Shown here: positions 17,260 to 27,291 of the stretch, one piece after another
Layout: the number at the start of each line of letters is the position of its first letter
Position numbering within the stretch: the stretch's first letter is position 1
Assembly (NCBI RefSeq): GCF_000757845.1
Contig: NZ_CP007753.1
Coordinates: 124,001-188,000 of the forward strand
Direction of reading: 5' to 3'
DNA length: 64,000 nucleotides
Origin: Prochlorococcus sp. MIT 0604
GTDB taxonomy: Bacteria; Cyanobacteriota; Cyanobacteriia; PCC-6307; Cyanobiaceae
Made by a program: the position numbers and the translations under genes
Notes under the pieces: model-generated
Told to the model about the DNA's origin: nothing
The model's database searches: none
Seen by the model: only the letters and a program-made list of their open reading frames with translations

Positions 17260-17308
17260 CCTTTGTACTTGTCATAAGGTACTTTAAAGAGCTAAATTCA
17301 TCTTATAT

Positions 17309-17380
<72 letters not shown>

Positions 17381-17409
17381 TTTCTTTCGGTTGAATCTTA
17401 TCTATGGTA

Positions 17410-17441
17410 GACATCATGTGATTTCATATGATGTCTTTTTT
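17410..17441 (+). terminator. Intrinsic terminator after tRNA-Asn
   Basis: Hairpin with arms GACATCATGTG and CATATGATGTC, an ATTT loop and a run of six T. It ends tRNA-Asn transcription. It differs in sequence from the terminators that follow the other three att cores. Confidence 0.85.
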
Positions 17442-17512
17442 AGTGCTGATCTGGCTTTTGTAGAAAAAGGATAAATCATACGTTTTCAGGTTACACCATA
17501 TTCTCCTTTTTA

Positions 17513-17555
17513 ATGGTCGGGAAATGGTCGGGAAATGACTTTTCATGGTCGGGAA
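17513..17555 (+). repeat. Unit 1 left arm-type repeats (ATGGTCGGGAA x3)
   Basis: Copies at 17513, 17524 and 17545; the first two are head-to-tail and the third is 21 bp after the second. The first pair plus one base (24 bp, 17513-17536) is repeated exactly at 24379-24402, and TTTTCATGGTCGGGAA at 17540 recurs at 24374. Position (128 bp inside the core) and copy number suggest integrase arm-binding sites; binding itself is inference. Confidence 0.8.
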
Positions 17556-17559
17556 GATC

Positions 17560-17715
17560 TCAACTTCTAATCTTTTTCCATCTATGGTACATATAACCCA
17601 TATAGATTCCTTGCATATAATTCTTTGCACCATTTTCTAATATATTCTTTGAAAATTTATTATTGAACTTTCTACTTTCTAGTAGTTCTTTTTTCCAATC
17701 TATTTCTTCTTTCAT
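17560..17715 (-). CDS. Tiny basic protein, last gene of the resolvase chain
   Basis: A 51-codon ORF (begins MKEEIDWKKELLESRKFNNK, ends HRWKKIRS) of unknown function, rich in Lys/Arg and aromatic residues. Its ATG overlaps the stop of the preceding gene as ATGA (17712-17715), which continues a run of three such overlaps from the resolvase. That coupling is the main reason to accept so short a gene. It ends 4 bp from the left arm-type repeats. Confidence 0.55.
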   Translation of the reverse strand: MKEEIDWKKELLESRKFNNKFSKNILENGAKNYMQGIYMGYMYHRWKKIRS

Positions 17716-17891
17716 TGCTGTTGCTGCTCTTGTGCTTTCTTCAATCTTTCGTATTCAACATGTAGAACACCTAAACGCCAAGCATCTTTTAATCCTTTAA
17801 CACCACCCATTAAGAGTTTTGCATCTGAAGGCGAATGAGATTTCATATTCAAGAACTCTTTCTGCCAAGATTTGTCATTCCATTTAGTCAT
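17712..17891 (-). CDS. Small protein of unknown function in the resolvase chain
   Basis: A 59-codon ORF (MTKWNDKSWQKEFLNMKSHS, ending in a glutamine run after LKKAQE). The interior LLMGGVKGLKDAWRLGVLHVEYERLKKA looks helical. ATGA overlaps join it to both the upstream 67-residue gene and the downstream 51-residue gene. Function unknown; the repeated coupling supports real translation. Confidence 0.6.
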   Translation of the reverse strand: MTKWNDKSWQKEFLNMKSHSPSDAKLLMGGVKGLKDAWRLGVLHVEYERLKKAQEQQQQ

Positions 17892-18091
17892 GCTTTTTCT
17901 CCATATTTTTTAAACTCATCCAAAGAATTCACAACTATGCTCTTGTAATCCTCTGGGAACCTTGACTTCATTATTGCAGGAATTTCCAAGCAATCTGGAT
18001 AGGGATTATGCAAATAAAAGATCACTTCCTTCTCTTCTTTCAAAACAATGTAATTAGATAATCCACCTGCATAATTATGTTCTTTCTTCAT
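17888..18091 (-). CDS. Small protein of unknown function coupled to the resolvase
   Basis: A 67-residue soluble protein (starts MKKEHNYAGGLSNYIVLKEE, contains FPEDYKSIVVNSLDEFKKYG). Its ATG overlaps the resolvase stop by 4 bp, and its own stop overlaps the next ATG by 4 bp. No domain is recognised. Co-expression with the resolvase is expected from the coupling. Confidence 0.65.
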   Translation of the reverse strand: MKKEHNYAGGLSNYIVLKEEKEVIFYLHNPYPDCLEIPAIMKSRFPEDYKSIVVNSLDEFKKYGEKA

Positions 18092-18705
18092 TTCCTTAAT
18101 GCCTCAACTTGTTCTGATTGTTCAAGTAATGCATCTCTATCGGCAATAATTCTTCTTATAGTTGCTAATCCTAAACCAGTTTGCTCTCTTATACCTCTAT
18201 AACTTTCTCCTTCATCTCTTAATCTAAGAACTAATTTTTCTTTTTTCTCACTTGTTTTTGGTCTACCTCCAAGATCTCCTCCTGTTTTTCTTCTGAACTC
18301 TACTGAAGCATTGACTCTCTCAGTTATTAAATCTCTCTCTACCTCATTTAATCCTGTTAATAACCCAATCAAGATAGGTGCGAACTTACCAAGTGCTTCA
18401 GTATTAACTAAACCATCAAGCGTAACTAAGTTAATACCCTCTGCCTGTAAGTCATTTAATCTGTTTATGACCTCTCTTTGGGTTCTCCCGATTCTGCTGA
18501 GAGTTGCAATTTTCAAGGTATCTCCCTTTCTAAGTGATGCTAGGCATTTCATTAGTTCTGGTCTTTCTTGTTCCGCCTTCCTAGTGCTTATTGTTTCAGA
18601 AAAGATAAGATCACATCCACTCTCTTTTAGTTTCTCAACTTGAGCATCTACTGTCTGAGTTCCACTCGCAGAACTAACTCTTGCATAACCTATTACTTTG
18701 TTCAT
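18088..18705 (-). CDS. Serine recombinase (resolvase/invertase family)
   Basis: A 205-residue small serine recombinase. The catalytic domain (about 1-140) opens IGYARVSSASGTQTVDAQ with the active-site Ser in YARVSS, followed by RPELMKCLASLRKGDTLKI and LSRIGRTQREV, then an E-helix region. The C terminus (GGRPKTSEKKEKLVLRLRDEGESYRGIREQTGLGLATIRRII) is a helix-turn-helix of the Hin/TnpR type. It could resolve multimers, invert DNA or help movement of unit 1. It heads a four-gene chain coupled by ATGA overlaps. A 27-bp palindrome sits just before its start. Confidence 0.9.
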   Translation of the reverse strand: MNKVIGYARVSSASGTQTVDAQVEKLKESGCDLIFSETISTRKAEQERPELMKCLASLRKGDTLKIATLSRIGRTQREVINRLNDLQAEGINLVTLDGLVNTEALGKFAPILIGLLTGLNEVERDLITERVNASVEFRRKTGGDLGGRPKTSEKKEKLVLRLRDEGESYRGIREQTGLGLATIRRIIADRDALLEQSEQVEALRK

Positions 18706-18709
18706 TTGT

Positions 18710-18741
18710 TTCAGTTACCATTACTGTTACTGAAATTATAA
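18710..18741 (-). promoter_or_regulatory. Resolvase promoter with palindromic operator/res candidate
   Basis: An imperfect inverted repeat at 18710-18736 (arms TTTCAGTTAC and GTTACTGAAA, 9 of 10 matching) lies 4 bp before the resolvase ATG. A perfect minus-strand TATAAT is at 18736-18741, directly upstream of it. A dimeric regulator bound here would block transcription; autorepression by the resolvase is a reasonable inference. Confidence 0.55.
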
Positions 18742-18837
18742 CATATAAGCAACCGAACACCCTTTCTGAACATTAAATTAATCACAAAAGTGTAATAATG
18801 CCATGTTTTAGGAATAGTAAATTCTGTTTCCATTACC

Positions 18838-19305
18838 TTAAGGTTGTTGAAACAGAATTTCCCAGTTGTCTTTTCTTTCTTCTTTGAACTTTTCGCTTGG
18901 TTCAAAATGTCTTATACCTTTATCTATTCTTTGACCTCCATCTTTCTTGGGAGTATTCATATATTCTTTTAATGTTTCTTTTATACAATTACTCACTTCA
19001 GAACTTTTAAAAATAAAAAAGTTAGGCAATACATCATTTGCTCCTATTTCTACTACTACATACCAAAGATTCTTATGTATTTGCTCATTTTTTCTTCCCA
19101 TCATCCAAGAACTTTTCCTACCATCAATTGTTCTTGTTTTAACTTGTATATTTACTGTGCTTAGATTCTCTGGATTAGTTGCTATGACATCTATTAATGT
19201 TGTCCCATCATCTGTTTTACCTGCGATATAACCCCTCTGTGCTAACTGTGCTAATACATAAAATTCACCTGCATTTCCTAGATTCTTATTTTTATTTGCT
19301 TCCAT
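18838..19305 (-). CDS. PD-(D/E)XK nuclease-like protein
   Basis: A 155-residue protein. The start GNAGEFYVLAQLAQRGYIAG (a Glu in a helix), then LIDVIATNP and NIQVKTRT give the E...D...(Q)xK pattern of PD-(D/E)XK nucleases, close to the family that opens GxxGEFxVxAxLxxxG. The C-terminal third is charged. It could be a restriction or anti-invader nuclease, a repair enzyme or an accessory protein for movement. The start codon directly follows a box-hairpin-T7 module with no Shine-Dalgarno sequence. Confidence 0.6.
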   Translation of the reverse strand: MEANKNKNLGNAGEFYVLAQLAQRGYIAGKTDDGTTLIDVIATNPENLSTVNIQVKTRTIDGRKSSWMMGRKNEQIHKNLWYVVVEIGANDVLPNFFIFKSSEVSNCIKETLKEYMNTPKKDGGQRIDKGIRHFEPSEKFKEERKDNWEILFQQP

Positions 19306-19349
19306 AAAAAAAGGAGCTAGTTGCCCCTTATTTTAGATCGACTGTCAAT
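19306..19349 (-). promoter_or_regulatory. Box-hairpin leader, copy 1
   Basis: On the minus strand the 20-bp box ATTGACAGTCGATCTAAAAT (19330-19349) is followed by a 6-bp hairpin AGGGGC/GCTCCT (19312-19328), a T7 run and directly ATG (19305). Identical boxes are at 19674 and 21068; a diverged one is at 25478. It may be a special promoter (TAAAAT as -10) that makes an mRNA beginning with a hairpin, or an attenuator. Confidence 0.6.
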
Positions 19350-19354
19350 CGTAT

Positions 19355-19387
19355 TTAATATAGCGGTGCAAGTAATAAGCGTTTCAT
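19355..19387 (-). other. Ten-codon mini-ORF or gene-start remnant MKRLLLAPLY
   Basis: ATGAAACGCTTATTACTTG (19387-19369) directly follows the TAA of the 86-residue gene and reads MKRLLLAPLY before a stop. Almost the same 19 bases occur at 20193-20175, and the true start of the secreted 200-residue protein (MKRFILLA) is related. It may be the broken 5' end of a secreted-protein gene or a leader peptide. Confidence 0.4.
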
Positions 19388-19648
19388 TTATTCAACAAGC
19401 TCAATTGAATATACAGTATCCTTACAATTATTTTTTTTATCCCATTCTTTCGCTTCATCTGATGACATTTCAGTACAAAGTGCATCCATATCTAAGACGT
19501 TCATAAGTAAATGAGATTTATGCTCGCCAGCTTGGACGAACTCATATTCTGACACTACTTCCTTACCCATAGCTGTTATAAATCCAGTAACGTCGGTTTT
19601 AAATTCTTCAAATGTGCAGCTAAAAGTTGAAATTATGAGTGTGTTCAT
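19388..19648 (-). CDS. Small protein of unknown function
   Basis: An 86-residue soluble acidic protein (starts MNTLIISTFSCTFEEFKTDV, ends DTVYSIELVE). The beta-alpha alternation and length would suit a small ferredoxin-like alpha/beta fold, but no family is recognised. It is preceded by box-hairpin copy 2, with ATG directly after the T-rich end, and followed by the MKRLLLAPLY mini-ORF. Confidence 0.6.
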   Translation of the reverse strand: MNTLIISTFSCTFEEFKTDVTGFITAMGKEVVSEYEFVQAGEHKSHLLMNVLDMDALCTEMSSDEAKEWDKKNNCKDTVYSIELVE

Positions 19649-19693
19649 AAAAATAGAGGGTTTTATCCCTCTAATTTTAGATCGACTGTCAAT
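19649..19693 (-). promoter_or_regulatory. Box-hairpin leader, copy 2
   Basis: The same 20-bp box (19674-19693, identical to copy 1) is followed on the minus strand by a perfect hairpin AGAGGG-ATAAAA-CCCTCT (19655-19672), ATTTTT, and the ATG at 19648. It lies directly after the stop of the 158-residue nuclease-like gene, so it could also act as that gene's terminator. Confidence 0.65.
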
Positions 19694-19696
19694 TAA

Positions 19697-20173
19697 TTAA
19701 TTAATTAATTTATCTACTTCTGCTCGAATCTCATCAAACCTAATACCTTCTCCATAAAGTTTTTTAAAAGGGATTAGAGAAATAGATTCGCTCTCAGGAA
19801 GGTCTTTAGTAGCGACAACCCAGAAAATCCATTCAGACATATCAAGTGGATCAGGTTCTCTTCTTGTGATCCAATCATCTTCTTGACCTAACAAACAGAA
19901 AACAAATCCAGCTCCATTTCTTTGTTTCTTAGGTGTAGGAAAAACAATTGAAGGTTTCTTTTGTTCCCATCTTTGAAAATAAGCAGCTGCCTTAACTTCT
20001 AATCCTGTGTTTTTGTATGAGACATCAAACTCAGCCCAAGGATAACGATGCTCTCCTGTATCGATTCCTAAAGCATGATGAATTAACCACTCAGCGTATG
20101 GACCACGAACAATATTCTGAAGAACATCTCCAGAGTTCCAATGGCTAAATTCACTTATTTTAAGTTTGGTCAT
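19697..20173 (-). CDS. Second PD-(D/E)XK nuclease-like protein
   Basis: A 158-residue protein with RGPYAEWLIHHALG (Glu helix), WAEFDVSYKNTGLEVKAAAYFQRW (Asp, then ExK) and aromatic motifs after it. That is the PD-(D/E)XK core as seen in a family of small predicted restriction-like endonucleases. It is unlike the nuclease candidate at 18838 apart from the motif. Its ATG overlaps the TGA of a 7-codon ORF (MKRLLLE) that itself overlaps the stop of the secreted-protein gene. It probably belongs to a transcript starting at box copy 3. Confidence 0.65.
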   Translation of the reverse strand: MTKLKISEFSHWNSGDVLQNIVRGPYAEWLIHHALGIDTGEHRYPWAEFDVSYKNTGLEVKAAAYFQRWEQKKPSIVFPTPKKQRNGAGFVFCLLGQEDDWITRREPDPLDMSEWIFWVVATKDLPESESISLIPFKKLYGEGIRFDEIRAEVDKLIN

Positions 20174-20193
20174 TCAAGTAGTAAGCGTTTCAT
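20170..20193 (-). other. Seven-codon mini-ORF MKRLLLE bridging two genes
   Basis: It overlaps the TAA of the 200-residue gene by one base (TAATG) and the ATG of the 158-residue gene by four (ATGA), so ribosomes could pass straight through. 18 of its first 19 bases match the mini-ORF at 19387. It may be a remnant rather than a selected leader. Confidence 0.4.
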
Positions 20194-20795
20194 TAATTAC
20201 ATCTAGGTTTATTTTTCCAAACAGGAGAATCGCAATTAATATTTCCTATCTTCCCTTTTTTCTCATTAGTAGTTTTTTTCATAAAATCGATAATCAAGGG
20301 GTTTTCATATGGGTTCAAACCTCCATCTCTACCTTGAGTATCTTGAGGTCCTTGACTGTTAGGTAATTTATAATTTGGAATAGGTCTGCCATCTTGATCT
20401 ACCCATCTCATCAAAGCTCTTGAGAAATCTTTTTGAGCTTTGCTATTAGCAAAAAGGAACAATGCTTCTCTTTTGATGCCATTCTTAGAGGTATAGGTAA
20501 TGTAGTTATAGTGTTCACCACTGCCAAATAAAGCTTGATTTGGTCGATCAGTATCATATCGGTAGTTCGTAAATTGATCTAAATATATACCTCCAACTCC
20601 TTCTACCCACATAGCGTTTCCCTGAAATCTTATTCTACATTCGTTATTTAGAAACCTACACCACCCATCGTGATAGCTTTTTGGACCATCTAGAAAATAA
20701 TTCTCGGGAAAACTAGCTTCTCCAAAATCAGCTTTTACCAAATTACCCAAAGGGGAAAATAAAGCTAAGCTTGCAAGAAGAATAAAACGCTTCAT
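20193..20795 (-). CDS. Secreted protein of unknown function
   Basis: A 200-residue protein with a signal peptide (MKRFILLASLALFSPLGNLVKA, cleavage likely after about residue 22). The mature part is rich in aromatic residues and Gly with cysteines in WCRFLNNECRIRF and near the end (NCDSP, PRCN), which suggests disulfides in the periplasm. It contains an AMWVEGVGGIYLDQF block. Its ATG follows the stop of the 81-residue secreted protein directly, so the pair is co-transcribed. Not recognised further. Confidence 0.65.
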   Translation of the reverse strand: MKRFILLASLALFSPLGNLVKADFGEASFPENYFLDGPKSYHDGWCRFLNNECRIRFQGNAMWVEGVGGIYLDQFTNYRYDTDRPNQALFGSGEHYNYITYTSKNGIKREALFLFANSKAQKDFSRALMRWVDQDGRPIPNYKLPNSQGPQDTQGRDGGLNPYENPLIIDFMKKTTNEKKGKIGNINCDSPVWKNKPRCN

Positions 20796-21041
20796 TTATT
20801 TTCCTTTAACGCAAACGTAACCTCTTGCCTTTGTACCGATTGTATTTGGATATTGACCATTTAAAAACTTCTGACCAGCAAATTCACATTCTTGTTCTGA
20901 ATTTGTTGGAATAGCCCAATTATGTGCAGTAGAACCAGCTGCTTGATTGAATTTACCTGCAGCCATTAACCACCAAGTTTCAGCATTAACAGCAGTAGGT
21001 AAAGCAAGACCAGCTAATAAAGGTATTAATAATTTACGCAT
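20796..21041 (-). CDS. Small secreted protein of unknown function
   Basis: An 81-residue protein with a signal peptide (MRKLLIPLLAGLALPTAVNA, cleavage after NA-ETWW) and a mature part of about 60 residues with two cysteines (QECEF, GYVCVKG) spaced for one disulfide. It leads the secreted-protein pair; the next ATG is immediately after its stop. It is preceded by box-hairpin copy 3. Similar tiny exported proteins are common in Prochlorococcus flexible genomes; the role is unknown. Confidence 0.65.
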   Translation of the reverse strand: MRKLLIPLLAGLALPTAVNAETWWLMAAGKFNQAAGSTAHNWAIPTNSEQECEFAGQKFLNGQYPNTIGTKARGYVCVKGK

Positions 21042-21087
21042 TAAATAAAGAGTGTCTTATCCCTCCAATTTTAGATCGACTGTCAAT
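21042..21087 (-). promoter_or_regulatory. Box-hairpin leader, copy 3
   Basis: The 20-bp box (21068-21087) is identical to copies 1 and 2. The following hairpin is degenerate (GGAGGG-ATAAGA-CACTCT, one mismatch and one wobble) but has the same arm and loop sizes as copy 2, followed by TTATTTA and ATG at 21041. Confidence 0.55.
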
Positions 21088-21172
21088 TAAGTTAAAGGTT
21101 TCAGTTCTGAGGTTCTATAAATATTAATCCCGCAAAATTATTACGGAAAAGATAATCACTATTGCGGAGCAG

Positions 21173-21640
21173 TTACGGATTAGTTGGTCGGCATCCTAAA
21201 TCAGGACTCTCACCAGTGACTCTTATGAATGAAGTTTGCGTCTTTACATCCAACTTATCTTCAAAGGTTCTTCTTTTTTTGGGTTTTCTATCTTCATAAG
21301 GCACTCTGTTTTTAATGCCTTTCCATTTATCGGTATAAGTTGTTTGCCATCTTGCTTGCCTCCATCTATCAAATATGTCCCCTCCTCCATACCTTTTAAT
21401 TACTTCGTGAAGGACTAAACCTCCTTTGTTGTCACATATATCAACTGGACAAAGTAAAACAAAGGTATCTCTATCCCTTGAACGTCCAAATATTGCCTTC
21501 TTCTTTTGACAGCAAGGGCATTGAACGAGGTATGCAGAGTAATTATTAACCTCTCTTACCCTCTTACCATTGAATTGTTGAACCATTTCAAGGAAGAATG
21601 GTTCTTCTATTGATTGTTCTGTGTGAAACTTGTATCCCAT
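21173..21640 (-). CDS. Zinc-finger protein, possibly primase-related
   Basis: A 155-residue basic protein with a C-x2-C...C-x4-C zinc site: CPCC near residue 47 and CPVDIC near 68, followed by KGGLVLHEVIKRYGGG. The layout (zinc ribbon, then a Gly-rich turn and a helix starting with a hydrophobic run) resembles the zinc-binding region of CHC2/P4-alpha-type primases. No TOPRIM or helicase part is present, so if related it is a stand-alone or truncated remnant. A zinc-dependent DNA-binding regulator is the alternative. Divergent from the plus-strand pair at 21904. Confidence 0.5.
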   Translation of the reverse strand: MGYKFHTEQSIEEPFFLEMVQQFNGKRVREVNNYSAYLVQCPCCQKKKAIFGRSRDRDTFVLLCPVDICDNKGGLVLHEVIKRYGGGDIFDRWRQARWQTTYTDKWKGIKNRVPYEDRKPKKRRTFEDKLDVKTQTSFIRVTGESPDLGCRPTNP

Positions 21641-21903
21641 AATAATGATTAATTGTTAGCGTTTGTAAACGAGATCTGATATTTGATGTGCAATTTATAT
21701 AGATAGAGTGGGTTGATATAACACACTCAATTCCCTTAAAGAACAGAACACCTGAGAGTACCTATTGGGGAAATACTCAAGAAACATATAAATAAAGGTA
21801 ATTAAATACATTTAAAACTAGGAACTGTTTTGTTGTCTTAGAGCGTTATGACTAGATAGTGGTTCTTTCAGGTTTTTCTTTATCACCAATTAAGGAGTAA
21901 TTT

Positions 21904-22083
21904 ATGGACACCGTATTAGATAAACCAATCTATTCCAAGAGACATATATCCATACCTCAAAGAGAGGTAGAACTTATAGACAAGATGAGTTCTAAATTGA
22001 TGAACTACTACGGATACACCTATTCACAGTTACATCGGTCATTAGTCAGAGATGAGTACAAAAGGAGAATGGAACTTCTATGA
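21904..22083 (+). CDS. Small basic protein of unknown function (plus-strand pair, gene 1)
   Basis: A 59-codon ORF (MDTVLDKPIYSKRHISIPQR...EYKRRMELL) with a strong ribosome site AAGGAG at 21892-21897. The ISIPQREVELIDKMSSKLM stretch looks like a small helical, perhaps ribbon-helix-helix-like, DNA-binding segment, but this is weak. It overlaps the next gene by 4 bp (ATGA). The two are the only element genes on the plus strand and may be regulators transcribed against the rest. Confidence 0.6.
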   Translation: MDTVLDKPIYSKRHISIPQREVELIDKMSSKLMNYYGYTYSQLHRSLVRDEYKRRMELL

Positions 22084-22325
22084 CAATTAAAGTGAATATA
22101 GAAAATGGAGTTCTGGAACAGAAACTCAATAAGGCAATTACTGAGATACCAAAGAGTAAGAGACCAAATCCATTTAATGAAACTACGGCTAAGAGAAGGT
22201 TTATTGAACTGGCGATTGAGAATTACATTAAAATCAATTATTCAGGATTAACAATCATTGAACAGGCAGAAAGAGAAGTTGCTGCTCAATGGGAAGCAAT
22301 GCTTAGAAGAAGTGCAGTTACCTAG
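22080..22325 (+). CDS. Small protein of unknown function (plus-strand pair, gene 2)
   Basis: An 81-residue protein, mainly helical and charged (contains PFNETTAKRRFIELAIENYIKI and AEREVAAQWEAMLRR). Coupled by ATGA to the preceding 59-residue gene. No family recognised. The position, divergent from the cargo and convergent with the integrase, suggests a control role, but this is only inference. Confidence 0.6.
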   Translation: MTIKVNIENGVLEQKLNKAITEIPKSKRPNPFNETTAKRRFIELAIENYIKINYSGLTIIEQAEREVAAQWEAMLRRSAVT

Positions 22326-22644
22326 TACGTCCTCCCTTAAAACTGCACGAACAATTAATTAAAAGAGGCAATTCTTATTCCTTATGATTCATAGGATAAG
22401 TAAAGACAAGGTTGGGAGAGGAGCGTCATGCAGAAACCATACTTGCTATTGCCTTTTAAACTCTCCTTTAAAACTGGCATGAACAATACATGAACACCGT
22501 TTTAACATCCATAATCAGATCTAAACTATAAAGTGTTACCCAAAGGTGCAATAAATAAAAGGGGTACTCCTGATTAATCTGTTTCAAAAATAATCCCCAG
22601 AATAAAATTGGGGTAGAGGTTTTTATCCCTCTACCTCATTTTTT
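22326..22644. other. Non-coding stretch with imperfect direct repeats and hairpins
   Basis: There is no ORF here. Two related segments (22331-22357 and 22461-22489) share CTCC(T)TTAAAACTG, then CA(C/T)GAACAAT. Near the right end CCCCA...TGGGG can pair (about 22591-22609). It is followed by GGTAGAGG/CCTCTACC with a run of eight T, a strong terminator for plus-strand transcription from the 22080 gene. On the minus strand it lies just after the integrase stop. Confidence 0.55.
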
Positions 22645-22650
22645 TTAAAT
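22611..22650 (+). terminator. Intrinsic terminator between the plus-strand pair and int
   Basis: Perfect 8-bp hairpin GGTAGAGG/CCTCTACC with a TTTTTATC-type loop followed within a few bases by a T8 run. It separates the convergent plus-strand pair from the integrase gene. Confidence 0.7.
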
Positions 22651-23931
22651 AATTAATCCCTCCTGAATAAGGGATTTAGACCACCATTTCATAAACTCCT
22701 TTCTCTTTTCTAGAAGTGTTGAACGATCATAATGACCCCTAGTTCCATTTAGATGACCTTTTCTTCCTAATTGACGATCAATTACTTCATAATCAAGATC
22801 TGATCTTTCAATTCCTAATGTTGTAATCACACTTCTCCATTGATGAGCAGTTTGTTTACCTTTCCAACCTAGATTTCTGAAATGGTTGTTGATAGTTGAT
22901 TCTCCTAAGTGAGGATTCTTTTGCCCACCCAATGAAGGAAAGCAATACTTTTGCCATCCAGTTTCTGCTTTTAGTTTCTTCATCAGTTGATTGATTTCAG
23001 GTGTCGAAGGAATAATGTGTTTTTCACAAGATCCACTTTCAAGTTGTTCTCTCTTATTCTTCAATCCTTTACATTCAGGAGGAATGACCCATTGATCTTC
23101 TTCAGGGTCATACCAATCCCATTCCAAACACACAATTACCGCTGATCGGATACACATAAGAAGATGTGCTTTAGTTGCTAAGTCAGTAACTACAGATCCA
23201 TTACATTCGTTTGCATTAACTGTCTTAAGGAACTTAGGAAGCATCCCCCAGGATTTTGATGTGATTGTATCAGCGAATGTTTTTTCTGAAACTCTCCTTT
23301 TAGTACCTGTTTCCCAATCAAATTTAATGTATAGAGGATTTTGGTCTTGTTGGATGTATTCTTCCCTTTCTGCGTAACCAAAAATCCAACTCATTAGTTG
23401 TCTAACCCTTGTCAGTTGGACAGGTGCATGAGGGAAAACAGTTTTCAGCATCTTTTTGCAGTATGGTCTTCCTCTTCTATCTCGCTGCAAATCTGCAATT
23501 AACATTTCATCTCCGATATATCTCAATACTTGATTTATTTTGTTCTTTCTATCGTTGAATGTTTCTTCTTTTACTCGATGTACATAAACCTCATCCATAT
23601 ATTCATTAGCAACTTCTTTGAAGGTTTTTCCACTTGCATTTTGTACTTTCCCAAATAACTTTGGATTCTTATTGTTGTTTTTGCTCCATACTTTTATTTC
23701 ATTCCATTTGTGAATAGCATCCTCTACTAATATTTCTTTTTCAAATACTCCAATTTTGACTGATTCTTTTTTACCAGAAGCATTAAATGGAAATCTCATT
23801 CTGCCTTCAAAATATTTTGAAGTTCCCCTTTTAACTAACGAAAGTCCACTTTTAGGTTGAACAGGATATGACTTATTATTCTTTAACTTTCTAATTTTAG
23901 GATTTGAATCTGCGAAGAATATAGAAGTCAT
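22645..23931 (-). CDS. P4-type tyrosine recombinase (integrase)
   Basis: A site-specific recombinase of 428 residues, and the probable integrase of unit 1. The C-terminal half has the catalytic pattern: Arg in MCIRSAVIVCLEWDWYD, HQWR near residue 369, a His in LGRKGHLNG, and the Tyr in RGHYDRSTLLEKR, followed by the FMKWW tail typical of P4-like integrases. The N-terminal half is the arm- and core-binding region. ATG at 23931 is chosen because AGGAGG lies 9 bp upstream and it overlaps the AlpA stop as TAATG; an upstream ATG at 23964 is less likely. Confidence 0.92.
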   Translation of the reverse strand: MTSIFFADSNPKIRKLKNNKSYPVQPKSGLSLVKRGTSKYFEGRMRFPFNASGKKESVKIGVFEKEILVEDAIHKWNEIKVWSKNNNKNPKLFGKVQNASGKTFKEVANEYMDEVYVHRVKEETFNDRKNKINQVLRYIGDEMLIADLQRDRRGRPYCKKMLKTVFPHAPVQLTRVRQLMSWIFGYAEREEYIQQDQNPLYIKFDWETGTKRRVSEKTFADTITSKSWGMLPKFLKTVNANECNGSVVTDLATKAHLLMCIRSAVIVCLEWDWYDPEEDQWVIPPECKGLKNKREQLESGSCEKHIIPSTPEINQLMKKLKAETGWQKYCFPSLGGQKNPHLGESTINNHFRNLGWKGKQTAHQWRSVITTLGIERSDLDYEVIDRQLGRKGHLNGTRGHYDRSTLLEKRKEFMKWWSKSLIQEGLII

Positions 23932-24143
23932 TATTTCCAACCTCCTCTTGCTCCTTGTAACCATTGCTCAATTTGATAAACAAGAAAAGCAATCCTCTTT
24001 TCAGATAGTTTTACTTTTGGAGGATATGTTCCTTGCTCTACCATTCTGTTAATAGTTGATATTGAAATTCCACACTCTGCACTAGCACCAGAAATGGACA
24101 AATGATGACGACCTAAATCGCCTTCTACGTTGAAGTTATTCAT
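23931..24143 (-). CDS. AlpA-family regulator / excisionase
   Basis: A 70-residue helix-turn-helix protein (SISGASAECGISISTINRMV, then YPPKVKLSEKRIAFLVYQIEQWL) with the AlpA/MerR-like wing and the typical EQWL end. In P4-type elements AlpA controls integrase expression and excision. It sits directly upstream of int with a 1-bp stop/start overlap. ATG at 24143 gives the expected length; the longer in-frame reading from 24419 would run through the arm repeats and adds no family sequence. Confidence 0.88.
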   Translation of the reverse strand: MNNFNVEGDLGRHHLSISGASAECGISISTINRMVEQGTYPPKVKLSEKRIAFLVYQIEQWLQGARGGWK

Positions 24144-24469
24144 AATAAATTTTTGTAATCTACGAGTAAATAAACGGGTAAATATATTCGTTTTAAATTT
24201 GAGCGTATCTAATAGATGAGGAAATATATTTGAGCAATAAATTGCTCTTGACGAATCCTGATTTTGCCTTCGTTTATACCTTGTTATTATACCACAATTC
24301 TTCAATGATGTCAAGGGATTACGAGGAATTTGAACCTCAAAAATGACCCCTAAAAAGGGTCTATCTAATAAAATTTTCATGGTCGGGAAATGGTCGGGAA
24401 ATTTATGAAAATCATCCATTTCCTACATCAGATTCAATCAGTAACTTCCACTTAATATCGATCTAAATT
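24144..24469. other. Non-coding right end of unit 1
   Basis: This holds the alpA/int promoter region and the right arm repeats, and ends at att core 2. No gene is supported. The long minus-strand reading frame through it has no family similarity. Confidence 0.55.
24374..24402 (+). repeat. Unit 1 right arm-type repeats (ATGGTCGGGAA x2)
   Basis: Copies at 24379 and 24390, head-to-tail, identical over 24 bp to the left pair at 17513. They end 67 bp before att core 2 at 24471. Confidence 0.8.
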
Positions 24470-24470
24470 C

Positions 24471-24483
24471 CGCCCGGGGAGTT
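24471..24483 (+). repeat. Attachment core copy 2 (unit 1 / unit 2 junction)
   Basis: CGCCCGGGGAGTT; identity with the tRNA copy spans 17 bp (24470-24486). Only this 3' piece of the tRNA is present, so it is not a functional tRNA. Confidence 0.9.
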
Positions 24484-24505
24484 TCTAATCACTTTACAAA
24501 CTTGC

Positions 24506-24530
24506 AGGGACTTTCATAAGTCTCTTTTTT
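24506..24530 (+). terminator. Intrinsic terminator after att core 2
   Basis: AGGGACTT-TCAT-AAGTCTCT with one wobble pair, then a T run. It has the same place relative to the core as the tRNA terminator but an unrelated stem. Confidence 0.8.
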
Positions 24531-24600
24531 GTGTCTATGAATAGTTCTTTCACAAAATGCTTTTCAGAACGTATCAAAAATATTCACTATTTTTTCAAAA

Positions 24601-24660
24601 ATGTTCGGGTAATGTTCTGGTTTAAATTTAATTATGTTCGGGTAAAAACTTAATATGTTC
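24601..24660 (+). repeat. Unit 2 left arm-type repeats (ATGTTCGGGTAA)
   Basis: Copies at 24601 (full), 24612 (ATGTTCTGG, degenerate), 24634 (full) and a partial ATGTTC at 24655. Offsets 0, 11 and 33 nearly match those in units 1 and 3. Confidence 0.75.
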
Positions 24661-24663
24661 TAC

Positions 24664-24906
24664 TTACTCTCCAACACATGGTGCTGATTCATATTCCTTG
24701 ATGTATTTAAATAATCTAGTTTGTCTTTTTACTAAAAGTATTATTAAAGGAATGAATCCAATAATAACAAAACAAAGAAGGACAGAAATAATTAACCAAA
24801 GTGCTTCTATAAGTGCTGCTTTATCTTTCCCTAAATAAGAAAGATCTAAAAAAAAGAAAAATAATATGATTTTTATAATTGCTTTTTTTTCTTCTCTTTG
24901 AAACAT
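24664..24906 (-). CDS. Small membrane protein (unit 2 cargo)
   Basis: An 80-residue protein with two hydrophobic segments: a short one (IIKIILFFFFLDLSYL) and a long one (ALWLIISVLLCFVIIGFIPLIILLV), then a basic RQTRLFKYIKEY tail. No family is recognised. It is the only credible gene in unit 2. Two-helix small membrane proteins occur in toxin, holin and stress systems, but nothing here decides between these. Confidence 0.55.
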   Translation of the reverse strand: MFQREEKKAIIKIILFFFFLDLSYLGKDKAALIEALWLIISVLLCFVIIGFIPLIILLVKRQTRLFKYIKEYESAPCVGE

Positions 24907-25001
24907 TAGAAAATTTGATAATTAATTTAAATTATCCTTTATTTGAAAATATGCAAATATAATGTTGTTAAAAATATAGTTGCAAATTTTTCGATTAAAA
25001 A

Positions 25002-25023
25002 AGTTCGGGTAATGTTCGGGTAA
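25002..25023 (+). repeat. Unit 2 right arm-type repeats
   Basis: AGTTCGGGTAA at 25002 and ATGTTCGGGTAA at 25012, head-to-tail, ending 70 bp before att core 3. They match the left unit 2 repeats. Confidence 0.75.
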
Positions 25024-25093
25024 GGGTCGTTATATGTAAAGAAATACCTTTCAAATCCTTTCATACCATTGCATTTAGCACTTGTTCGGAACT

Positions 25094-25106
25094 CGCCCGG
25101 GGAGTT
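25094..25106 (+). repeat. Attachment core copy 3 (unit 2 / unit 3 junction)
   Basis: CGCCCGGGGAGTT preceded by GTTCGGAACT, which resembles the tRNA T-arm GTTCGAATCC. It looks like a diverged tRNA 3' fragment. Confidence 0.85.
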
Positions 25107-25121
25107 CAATAACGGGTTCAC

Positions 25122-25154
25122 AAGACTTCAGGTTTTATCACTTGAAGTCTTTTT
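25122..25154 (+). terminator. Intrinsic terminator after att core 3
   Basis: An 11-bp stem AAGACTTCAGG/CTTGAAGTCTT (one wobble), then T5. It is unrelated in sequence to the other post-core terminators. Confidence 0.8.
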
Positions 25155-25227
25155 CATTGATGTGAATTAACTCTTGAGAAAGTGAGAGAATCAGAAAAAA
25201 TCAGGATATCCCAGATTATTCTTTTTT

Positions 25228-25272
25228 GTGCAGGTGATTTGAAGGTGAAGATCTATTTTTCGTGCAGGTGAA
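25228..25272 (+). repeat. Unit 3 left arm-type repeats (GTGCAGGTGA)
   Basis: Copies at 25228, about 25240 (TGAAGGTGA, degenerate) and 25262. Offsets 0, 12 and 34, starting 121 bp after the core. Confidence 0.75.
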
Positions 25273-25285
25273 AGAAGATTTAATT

Positions 25286-25414
25286 CTAATAGTGTGGTGG
25301 TTCTGACTCTTCTGGTGGAAAATATGTCTCATCATCTCTGCTTTTTTCTTTTTTTCTAAAATATTCTTCTGATGGATCTAAACCATCATTGTCATAGTCT
25401 TTTTCTCTTTCCAT
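25286..25414 (-). CDS. Possible small acidic protein
   Basis: A 42-codon ORF (MEREKDYDNDGLDPSEEYFR, ending PPHY), strongly charged, with AGGA 12 bp before its ATG. Composition unlike random AT-rich frames supports it weakly. Divergent from the SHOCT-domain gene. Function unknown. Confidence 0.4.
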   Translation of the reverse strand: MEREKDYDNDGLDPSEEYFRKKEKSRDDETYFPPEESEPPHY

Positions 25415-25477
25415 TTCTTGATTTTATCCTTTTATTTTTTATATGGGACAGGGAGTTCACCTTTTATAAATTCTTAT

Positions 25478-25527
25478 ATTGACAGTTAATTTAAAATAAG
25501 AAGCAATTAACTTCTTTTTTTGAAGAA
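25478..25527 (+). promoter_or_regulatory. Box-hairpin leader, copy 4 (unit 3)
   Basis: ATTGACAGTTAATTTAAAAT (25478-25497) matches the unit 1 box at 17 of 20 positions. It is followed by the hairpin AGAAG/CTTCT (25499-25515) and a T7 run, then GAAGAAATG. A competing hairpin CTTC-T7-GAAG is possible. The layout is the same as in unit 1 although the elements differ. Confidence 0.6.
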
Positions 25528-26397
25528 ATGGATAAACCTGATTTTGATGAATATGGTGTCCAAAGAGAAAATACTAAACTAGATAATTTCTTAAAAAGAG
25601 ATTCAAATCAATATATGAGGTTGCAAGGTTCCGAAAAAACTTTGTTTAAGGATTCACAAGCAACAACAATGTTTGAAAAGCAAGCAAATGGTAAGTATAA
25701 AGTTATAAAAAGAGAAGGTACTTTAGTTTTAACTTCAAGGCGATTAACTTTTTCAGTATATTCTCCAAAAGGAGTGGCAATGGGTTTTATTCCTGGAGTT
25801 GGTTATTCCAATTACAGATATCGATGGAAAGAAAAAGATTATATTATTTTCTCTTACCCAACATTTTTATTGCTTGGAAAATTAATTAATAGAACAAATG
25901 AGACCTTTTGGACAGCAAAAGGAGGGGATATTCAATGGATAGTTGAAGATGAAAATATTAAGTTTGAAATTCCTTGTATGCAAGAGGATACTGTTAATCA
26001 GATTAATGATCTATTAAGTTTGGAACTGGATCGTTTTGTTTATAAAATGATGTTTAGTTTTAAAGATTCAGAACTATATCCAAAATGGTCAGAGTTTTAC
26101 GAAACAGATGATAAAGCATTACTTTTCAATAATTTATTAAAAGAGAATAGTCATTTTAAATTTAAAAAACCAACAGTTACCTGGACAGGAATTTCGCTCA
26201 AAGATGATGCAAGATCAAATCAGGACGCGGATGAAATTAAAAGTCAAAAAAATATTGAAAAATTAGAACATAATACTGAATCCAAAAACCAACTTAGTAT
26301 TTCAGATGAACTTGAGAAACTTGCAACTTTAAAAGAAAAAGGATTACTTACTGAAGAAGAATTTACTGCTGCTAAAGTTAAACTTTTAAATTCATAA
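25528..26397 (+). CDS. SHOCT-domain protein with a PH/GRAM-like N-terminal part
   Basis: A 289-residue soluble protein. The last 33 residues (SDELEKLATLKEKGLLTEEEFTAAKVKLL) are a clear SHOCT domain, a short oligomerisation/membrane-association module. The first 140 residues contain a GTLVLTSRRLTFSVYSPKG strand pair and GDIQWIVEDENIKFEIP, the pattern of bacterial PH/GRAM-like domains. The middle is charged. Function unknown; PH-SHOCT proteins often act at membranes. It is the main cargo of unit 3 and is preceded by box-hairpin copy 4. Confidence 0.7.
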   Translation: MDKPDFDEYGVQRENTKLDNFLKRDSNQYMRLQGSEKTLFKDSQATTMFEKQANGKYKVIKREGTLVLTSRRLTFSVYSPKGVAMGFIPGVGYSNYRYRWKEKDYIIFSYPTFLLLGKLINRTNETFWTAKGGDIQWIVEDENIKFEIPCMQEDTVNQINDLLSLELDRFVYKMMFSFKDSELYPKWSEFYETDDKALLFNNLLKENSHFKFKKPTVTWTGISLKDDARSNQDADEIKSQKNIEKLEHNTESKNQLSISDELEKLATLKEKGLLTEEEFTAAKVKLLNS

Positions 26398-26499
26398 AGC
26401 GAAGATACTTATTTACTTATAAAGAGAGTGAGGGTCTTGAAAATCACTTTTTATGTTCCTCATGAAGAGTTTGCAGGGTTTCTCAAAAATTAAAAACAT

Positions 26500-26520
26500 G
26501 TGCAGGTGATATGCAGGTGA
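26500..26520 (+). repeat. Unit 3 right arm-type repeats
   Basis: GTGCAGGTGA at 26500 and ATGCAGGTGA at 26511, head-to-tail, ending 71 bp before att core 4. They match the left unit 3 repeats. Confidence 0.75.
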
Positions 26521-26591
26521 AAATATCGTTTTTTCCTTATTTTCTCTATCAGATGCTGTCAGACGCTATCATTTTTGCTTGACCCGACAGT

Positions 26592-26604
26592 CGCCCGGGG
26601 AGTT
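26592..26604 (+). repeat. Attachment core copy 4 (outer right boundary)
   Basis: CGCCCGGGGAGTT, preceded by CCGACAGT, with no further tRNA similarity. It marks the right end of the stack and is probably the original chromosomal end of the tRNA. Confidence 0.85.
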
Positions 26605-26931: not shown

Positions 26932-27291
26932 CTAGTCATCCCACATATCCTTTTTATCTTGATCGAAATTATTCCTTTCAAGTAATTCTATTCTTTGTTT
27001 CTGAGAGTCTATTTCTGTTTCAATTACGTTTTTATCGTCGATGTATTTTGTTTGTATTTCTAAGATAATTGTTTCAAATTGTTCTCCAAAAAAATCTGAC
27101 ATTTCCTTCCATGCTTCCATTTCCTCTTCTTTGCCAATAGTATCGTTTATCTGATGGGAAATAATTTCTAGTACATATTGTTTAAGTTCCTTATGACTCA
27201 TCGATTCAACTTTTTTTTGAATGTAAAGTTCTTTAAGATTTTCTAGTTGTTTTTTTGATAAATCTGAATAGATAATAGACTTCTTTTTCAT
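26932..27291 (-). CDS. Coiled-coil protein of unknown function
   Basis: A 119-residue charged, helical protein (MKKKSIIYSDLSKKQLENLK...; a C-terminal IETEIDSQKQRIELLERNNF heptad-like stretch). No domain recognised. Just past its stop a 30-bp near-copy of its own coding sequence occurs, suggesting local duplication. It lies between the island and rpaA and could be core or an older accessory gene. Confidence 0.5.
   Translation of the reverse strand: MKKKSIIYSDLSKKQLENLKELYIQKKVESMSHKELKQYVLEIISHQINDTIGKEEEMEAWKEMSDFFGEQFETIILEIQTKYIDDKNVIETEIDSQKQRIELLERNNFDQDKKDMWDD

Follow-up and report, generated by a model that had tools for sequence, protein, structure and literature searches.

The region behind the tRNA-Asn(gtt) gene of Prochlorococcus sp. 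MIT 0604 raises the question of how units that encode no integrase of their own can be mobile. Three units stand there in tandem, and only the first, unit 1, encodes an integrase. The region lies in a stretch of 64,000 nucleotides, here called the window (G000:C1:124001-188000; positions without a contig name refer to it), of a genome consisting of one contig of 1.78 Mb. The target tRNA gene occupies 17308..17381 on the plus strand (ARAGORN). The units are bounded by the 13-bp core CGCCCGGGGAGTT, which has four exact copies in the genome, all on the plus strand behind this tRNA gene. Core 1 (17370..17382), which consists of the last bases of the tRNA gene and one further base, marks the left end of unit 1; core 2 (24471..24483) is the right end of unit 1 and the left end of unit 2; core 3 (25094..25106) has the same position between units 2 and 3; and core 4 (26592..26604) is the right end of unit 3, followed by sequence resembling the flank of a bare site. 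The first-pass annotation of this DNA had described unit 1 as bounded by identical 17-bp cores. The 17-mer is present at 17369 and 24470, but the repeat common to all copies has 13 bp; in the 17-mer, the additional TCT on the right already belongs to the left end of unit 2.

The array runs past position 24483 and ends at 26604, with core-to-core sizes of 7,101 bp (unit 1), 623 bp (unit 2) and 1,498 bp (unit 3). A conserved flank gene (DUF7326; 26932..27291, minus strand) served as the marker of the bare site. Its distance to the tRNA core is 308-354 bp in six bare-site genomes, and that to core 4 in the window is 343 bp; therefore 9,222 bp have been inserted. The polymorphism expected by the first-pass annotation exists, as six of the ten single-core control genomes carry the bare site. 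Units 2 (24484..25106) and 3 (25107..26604), both given on the plus strand, have attachment (att) sites at both ends and no integrase or transfer genes, as is characteristic of cis-mobilizable elements. Unit 2 contains one open reading frame (ORF) of 80 amino acids (24664-24906, minus strand), and unit 3 contains an ORF with a SHOCT domain (25528-26397, plus strand).

Each unit has its own arm motif in a fixed geometry: two copies precede the right core by approximately 91 bp, and three follow the left core at a distance of about 120-165 bp. In unit 1, TGGTCGGGAA occurs at 17514, 17525 and 17546 (17514..17555; steps of 11 and 21 bp) and again at 24380 and 24391 (24380..24400; step of 11 bp). 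The motif of unit 2 is GTTCGGGTAA, found at 24603 and 24636 with a degenerate copy at 24614 (24603..24645), and at 25003 and 25014 (25003..25023). Sites of the TGCAGGTGA type are present at the left end of unit 3 at 25229, 25240 and 25263 (25229..25272), and TGCAGGTGAT/A at its right end at 26501 and 26512 (26501..26521); all these sites are on the plus strand. The exact pair of 24-bp repeats previously reported in unit 1 was recovered (the window contains exactly two copies of the 24-mer, at 17513 and 24379, in direct orientation), and these repeats are best read as candidate integrase arm-type sites. In attP of the lambda type, arm-type sites lie on either side of the core, and this arrangement is observed here as a sequence pattern.

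To place the array in context, tRNA-Asn regions were fetched from further genomes and 67 Prochlorococcus tRNA-Asn loci were analysed: those of 54 of the 58 genomes with at least two exact cores (G090, G103, G206 and G223 were omitted), ten single-core controls, and L035, L036 and L044, chosen for integrase hits. Since the loci were selected in this way, the proportions given below are not genus-wide. L034 was dropped as a duplicate of L056 from the same genome. L018 was removed; its longest frame is not an integrase, and two matches to it (L059, L073) are thus false positives. The sample contains 79 closed units of 169-14,637 bp (median 1,491). Arm pairs, defined as tandem 10-mers with at most one mismatch and a period of 11 or 12 that start 95-89 bp before a core, were found at 72 of 85 right ends, compared to 0.51% of 26,800 random positions and none of 60 tRNA cores. 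Among the 55 units of at least 330 bp with a clear right pair, the left end carries the motif of the right end in 40 cases, whereas 2000 permutations of the left ends gave a mean of 4.7 and a maximum of 13. The number of distinct arm motifs in the sample is 22 by automatic grouping and 26 if the groups are split by hand. Arm pairs also accompany integrases of the family: among 40 related loci, 30 have a pair upstream of the integrase (windows of 1,500 bp; L294 is a second fetch of L007, and L015-L017 are near-identical), compared to one of 40 downstream control windows of 1,300 bp. For several of these pairs, no tRNA core is evident nearby.

The best explanation, to which we assign a probability of roughly 0.7, would be that the units share a landing site, that each has a private arm address, and that an integrase supplied in trans moves them. 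At the end of tRNA-Asn, the integrase of unit 1 would cleave the 13-bp core and hold, with its N-terminal domain, five arm-type sites of 10-11 bp, three inside the left end and two inside the right, while the rest of the protein would read the shared core. AlpA, encoded next to it, may switch it towards excision; this role is suggested by the phage-inducible chromosomal minimalist islands (PICMI), where AlpA expression sufficed to trigger excision and activation without a phage, the resident int also being needed (PMC10803314; this and the other papers cited are represented by excerpts). All units carrying the matching motif could be served by such an integrase in trans, and the arm motif would then be a private address on a common landing site.

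The distribution of integrases is consistent with this explanation. An integrase of this lineage is present in five of the 79 closed units and a remnant in one (L044); open contigs hold two further integrase units. Integrase-less units are also present in every one of the five motif groups that include an integrase-bearing unit. A search with PF00589 in 59 genomes detected, inside units, only the integrases of L040 and L041, both already known as integrase units; as this profile misses the unit 1 integrase itself, it is a control for other integrase types only. AlpA-like genes are found in 30 of the 79 closed units, and 26 of these are integrase-less (including L044 with its remnant). By inspection, AlpA of the integrase-less units is of a second type, and its start codon usually lies directly behind the arm pair. 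In 25 such units (L044 was left out), the ratio of nonsynonymous to synonymous substitution rates (dN/dS) has a median of 0.26 over 292 of 300 pairs and is below 0.5 in 97% of the 292 usable pairs, which are not independent. Thus AlpA of the integrase-less units is under purifying selection, and in these units it is probably an excision switch.

Traces of movement were observed as well. A copy of unit 2 is found in genome G263 with 95.4% identity over 657 columns, and the match runs exactly from core to core (24471-25106 in the window). The 300 bp beyond it on each side give alignments of only 46-47%; the flank upstream of the tRNA gene is 66.1% identical (67.7% by blastn), the downstream flank 71.1%, and a nearby regulator gene 78%. 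Unit 2 was recently transferred between distant strains, and its jump was apparently made by a borrowed integrase reading its private motif. The G263 copy has three right arm sites (L102:2371-2402; 2371, 2382 and 2393), compared to two in the window. A search of the window's genome that allowed up to two mismatches gave no further occurrence of the arm pair of unit 2 or of that of unit 3, and thus no second resident element shares either address; if the model holds, a matching integrase came and went or acted elsewhere. Among the integrases found, that of L041 (motif TCGTTCTGGT) comes closest as a candidate helper of unit 2. The ends of unit 2 surround unrelated cargo in L069, and a 227-bp version consisting of little but the ends is present in L061. 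In L071, the ends of unit 1 (88.7% over 551 bp and 93.0% over 115 bp) occur without an integrase. When units were compared to their host flanks, the unit was more alike by over 5 points in nine of 17 pairs (eight of 15 without L068/L082 and L050/L058, two rows with coverage well above 1).

The integrase protein offers a candidate reader of the arms. The N-terminal domain of its structural model (mean predicted local distance difference test, pLDDT, 83.5; predicted template modelling score, pTM, 0.52; 14 sequences) is rich in strands. Lambda integrase chains make up the six best PDB matches of the model, which extend over some 400 columns and have low template modelling scores (query 0.28-0.30, target 0.33-0.37). 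In the 14 aligned relatives R262, K291, R366 and Y401 are invariant and H363 is nearly so; we take these five residues to be catalytic from what is known of the family. In five close integrases, the columns that follow the split by motif (L005 and L007 versus the rest) number 11 in the N-terminal domain, none in the central domain and six in the catalytic domain; L005 and L007 are 90%, 64% and 91% identical in the three domains, respectively.

Several observations weigh against the proposed addressing. The correlation of integrase and motif concerns five proteins, and shared descent explains part of it, as L005 and L007, which have one motif in common, are close in the catalytic domain too. 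Moreover, the N-terminal domains of the window integrase and L006, which share a motif, are 74% identical, and those of pairs with different motifs are hardly less so (75% for the window and L004, 73% for L006 and L007). No integrase was found in the sample for 17 of the 22 automatic motif groups, and 15 of the 55 units lack a matching left motif. The repetition of a motif within an array is not avoided (two cases seen, 1.04 expected), and the idea that members of an array must exclude each other by differing in motif was rejected. Finally, the genome of the window has further integrase-like genes. Four matches to the phage-integrase family lie at G000:C1:1090800-1091348, 1290988-1291536, 632182-632592 and 635240-635743; two of them have equal scores and frame lengths at different places.

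One alternative is that the integrase-less units are dead leftovers, spread solely by homologous recombination or by descent, with fossil arms. Deletion derivatives do exist, such as the unit of L071 mentioned above, and 12 of the 79 units are remnants of 169-257 bp that contain a core, a hairpin, an arm cluster and a second core; a deletion from the arms of one end to those of the other may have produced them. For eight of the 17 pairs, the similarity of the units does not exceed that of the host flanks or is even lower, which counts against the addressing model too and means that old, vertically inherited or locally diverging units also exist. However, the match of unit 2 to its relative in G263 stops exactly at the cores, with unrelated sequence outside and a flank identity of 66%, the shared cores have just 13 bp, and AlpA of the integrase-less units is under selection. 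We consider it unlikely that the integrase-less units as a whole are leftovers. Another possibility is that the tandem 10-11-bp sites bind AlpA, as excisionase, and not the integrase, so that the specificity would be that of the excisionase. The excisionase sites of lambda are tandem repeats, and in many integrase-less units AlpA starts, by inspection, directly behind the right pair. This assignment appears rather improbable, since the motif is present at both ends and also in units where no AlpA was found, for example units 2 and 3. By inspection, AlpA of L035 is close to those of L056 and L036 despite differing motifs (TGGTCGGGA versus TGTTGGGAA), and L035 has the motif of the window, yet the AlpA of the window is less similar to it.

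Unit 1 could also be a phage satellite or a prophage remnant that travels in virions, as its int-alpA pair resembles that of PICMI satellites (PMC10803314). This has little chance of being correct: no structural, packaging or primase family was detected by Pfam and PHROG in ten unit 1 proteins, nor in the 17 ORFs searched out of 67 listed for relatives (ten with Pfam, ten with PHROGs, three with both). In the viral contigs of IMG/VR there are no exact arm pairs of unit 1 or 2, and among the matches listed (146 loci) no core-holding viral locus has arms at low G+C. The arm pair of viral contig locus L124, the only one to pass, lies in DNA of 73% G+C and was judged to be a chance occurrence. Peptide patterns detected no relatives of the integrase in viral contigs, a method that catches close relatives only; peptide patterns found none in genome contigs either, although another genome search does find relatives, and thus the pattern search misses them. 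It is very improbable that the serine recombinase of unit 1 moves the element and the tRNA repeats are incidental. Such a recombinase is present in all seven integrase-bearing tRNA-Asn units (five closed, two on open contigs); however, the element ends coincide with the tRNA core and the integrase-type arms, no serine recombinase was found in any of the 74 integrase-less units, one of which moved recently (PF00239 in 59 genomes as control), and the protein is of the short resolvase/invertase type (205 amino acids).

A private arm address read by an integrase in trans therefore remains our preferred reading, and it could be extended. The tRNA genes may hold arrays of plug-in cassettes under an address code, with one core and private arm motifs that choose the integrase, the cassette itself deciding when to leave; we regard this wider proposal as an even bet. 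In it the cassette would time its exit and a visiting integrase would do the work, since integrase-less units outnumber the others by more than 10:1 in the sample and many keep AlpA.

The gene content of unit 1 agrees with most of what the first-pass annotation had claimed. The tyrosine integrase (22645..23931, minus strand, 428 amino acids; PF14659, 7.3e-06; PHROG integrase, 3.2e-29) is translationally coupled, as stated there, to an AlpA-type regulator or putative excisionase (23931..24143, minus strand, 70 amino acids; Pfam AlpA PF05930, 8.7e-07): its start overlaps the AlpA stop at TAATG and is preceded by AGAGGAGG. At the other end lies the predicted serine recombinase of the resolvase/invertase family (18088..18705, minus strand; PF00239, 1e-28), with an imperfect palindrome before the gene (18709..18735, given on the plus strand). 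Ten of the 13 positions of the palindrome pair, and 36 of 63,973 27-mers of the window pair equally well; its conservation is thus better evidence: a copy that differs at a single place precedes the gene of an 82%-identical resolvase in a tRNA-Ser element of the same genome. The reported absence of structural and packaging genes holds for the ten proteins searched, in contrast to what defines a prophage. Judged by its sequence, unit 1 is an intact-looking, self-sufficient integrating element, and its description as a small, apparently intact tRNA-integrating element with a tyrosine integrase, AlpA and a serine recombinase is supported.

The exception is the view that two recombinases in so small an element are noteworthy. 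This peculiarity was rejected, because the pairing of a serine and a tyrosine recombinase is usual in this lineage. A serine recombinase also adjoins the integrases of L037, L038, L039 and L043; none was found in L042, where the contig ends nearby, or in L044 with its integrase remnant. It probably resolves dimers or tandem copies. The resolvase, the palindrome and nearby sequence (18088-18905) are common to unit 1 and the tRNA-Ser element (L038:13753-14520). Three small ORFs behind the resolvase (51, 59 and 67 amino acids; 17560..18091, minus strand) have relatives of 70-96% identity in other genomes, whose resolvases are just 27-29% identical. These two observations together indicate module swapping.

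Seven tRNA genes are used by tycheposons, which have been found in vesicles or virus-like particles. Integration at a tRNA gene with a repeat of the tRNA 3' end, as in these elements, is observed here. Compared by description (Hackl et al. 2023, as presented in the citing papers PMC10872708, PMC10187409, PMC10654061 and PMC11389934), unit 1 resembles a tycheposon in being tRNA-linked, found in Prochlorococcus and equipped with a tyrosine recombinase, and its 7.1 kb fall within the quoted range of 4-200 kb (PMC10872708). In contrast, units 2 and 3 lack a recombinase and, with 0.6 and 1.5 kb, are below 4 kb, and the excerpted descriptions of the citing papers include no private arm motifs. In Dehalococcoides, islands stand in tandem behind one RNA gene, ssrA, with short repeats of the 3' end of that gene between them; 16 have an integration module and 15 do not, the latter being called possible cis-mobilizable elements (PMC3146451). 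However, their enzyme is a large serine integrase and not a tyrosine integrase, the excerpts describe no arm motifs, and mobilisation was proposed to occur jointly with adjacent islands (PMC3146451). The tRNA-Met island of Prochlorococcus MIT9313 has a similar partial tRNA repeat, with five copies of a 36-bp match, but was proposed as an integration site of phage P-SS2 and contains degraded transposases, again with no arm motifs in the excerpted description (PMC2784084). PICMI are likewise small, with int and alpA and a requirement of AlpA for excision (PMC10803314); unlike their set of int, alpA and primase beside fis, unit 1 has no primase family, uses tRNA-Asn as target and carries a serine recombinase. 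Miniature inverted-repeat transposable elements (MITE) and clusters of attC sites lacking integron-integrases (CALIN) are also non-autonomous units moved by an enzyme made elsewhere (PMC11389934), whereas the units considered here are specific to a tRNA site, have an arm motif as candidate address and often keep AlpA. The similarity to lambda consists in arm sites flanking a core and in the best structural matches of the integrase; here, however, one core is combined with more than 20 arm motifs, and most elements have no integrase.

Thus, tandem RNA-gene islands with and without integration modules, repeated tRNA fragments and non-autonomous elements are already known, as far as the excerpted papers go. 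The private arm motif of each unit on a shared core and the retention of AlpA in integrase-less units are apparently new: nothing on arm-motif addressing or on integrase-less islands that keep an excisionase was found in the open-licence literature, a scope that leaves Hackl et al. 2023 outside. These units bear on how streamlined ocean bacteria swap genes. If arms do function as addresses, a 10-bp motif would suffice to predict which integrase serves an orphan cassette, cassettes down to 0.6 kb could be explained as mobile units, and a substrate-swap assay would give a simple test. The units would also supply more than 20 natural arm specificities that share one core, a resource for the study of tyrosine integrases.

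The cargo of unit 1 consists of ORFs without a family match above the curated cut-off, six on the minus strand (18838-19305, 19388-19648, 19697-20173, 20193-20795, 20796-21041, 21173-21640) and two on the plus strand (21904-22083, 22080-22325). A comparison of six proteins to PADLOC for a defence role gave only two weak matches, both to the resolvase. By eye, the product of 19697-20173 resembles a PD-(D/E)XK nuclease and that of 21173-21640 a primase-type zinc finger, neither backed by any library searched; for the former, no convincing PDB relative was found (one match at E 0.81). A 49-bp sequence ending in TTTTAGATCGACTGTCAAT occurs three times between cargo genes (19304-19352, 19648-19696, 21042-21090), with similar copies in units of L065 and L071, and could be a repeat that joins cargo. 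In the integrase-bearing relative L056 (genome G044, 14.6 kb), the cargo includes a type I restriction-modification set (HsdM, HsdS, HsdR).

Terminator-like hairpins within 110 bp of the core are found at the left ends of 74 of the 79 units, compared to 342 of 1,580 random segments. In the window, that of unit 1 lies at 17409..17441 (plus strand) and the others begin at about 24506 and 25122; the hairpin regions are 17383-17445, 24484-24530 and 25107-25155. It seems that an insertion behind the tRNA gene brings its own terminator. In the same genome, tRNA-Ser elements show the arm arrangement of the tRNA-Asn units as well, among them a 1-kb unit without integrase. This unit belongs to a second tandem array, at tRNA-Ser gct (L043), where it follows an integrase unit, carries a separate arm motif and encodes a repeat protein with Cys pairs.

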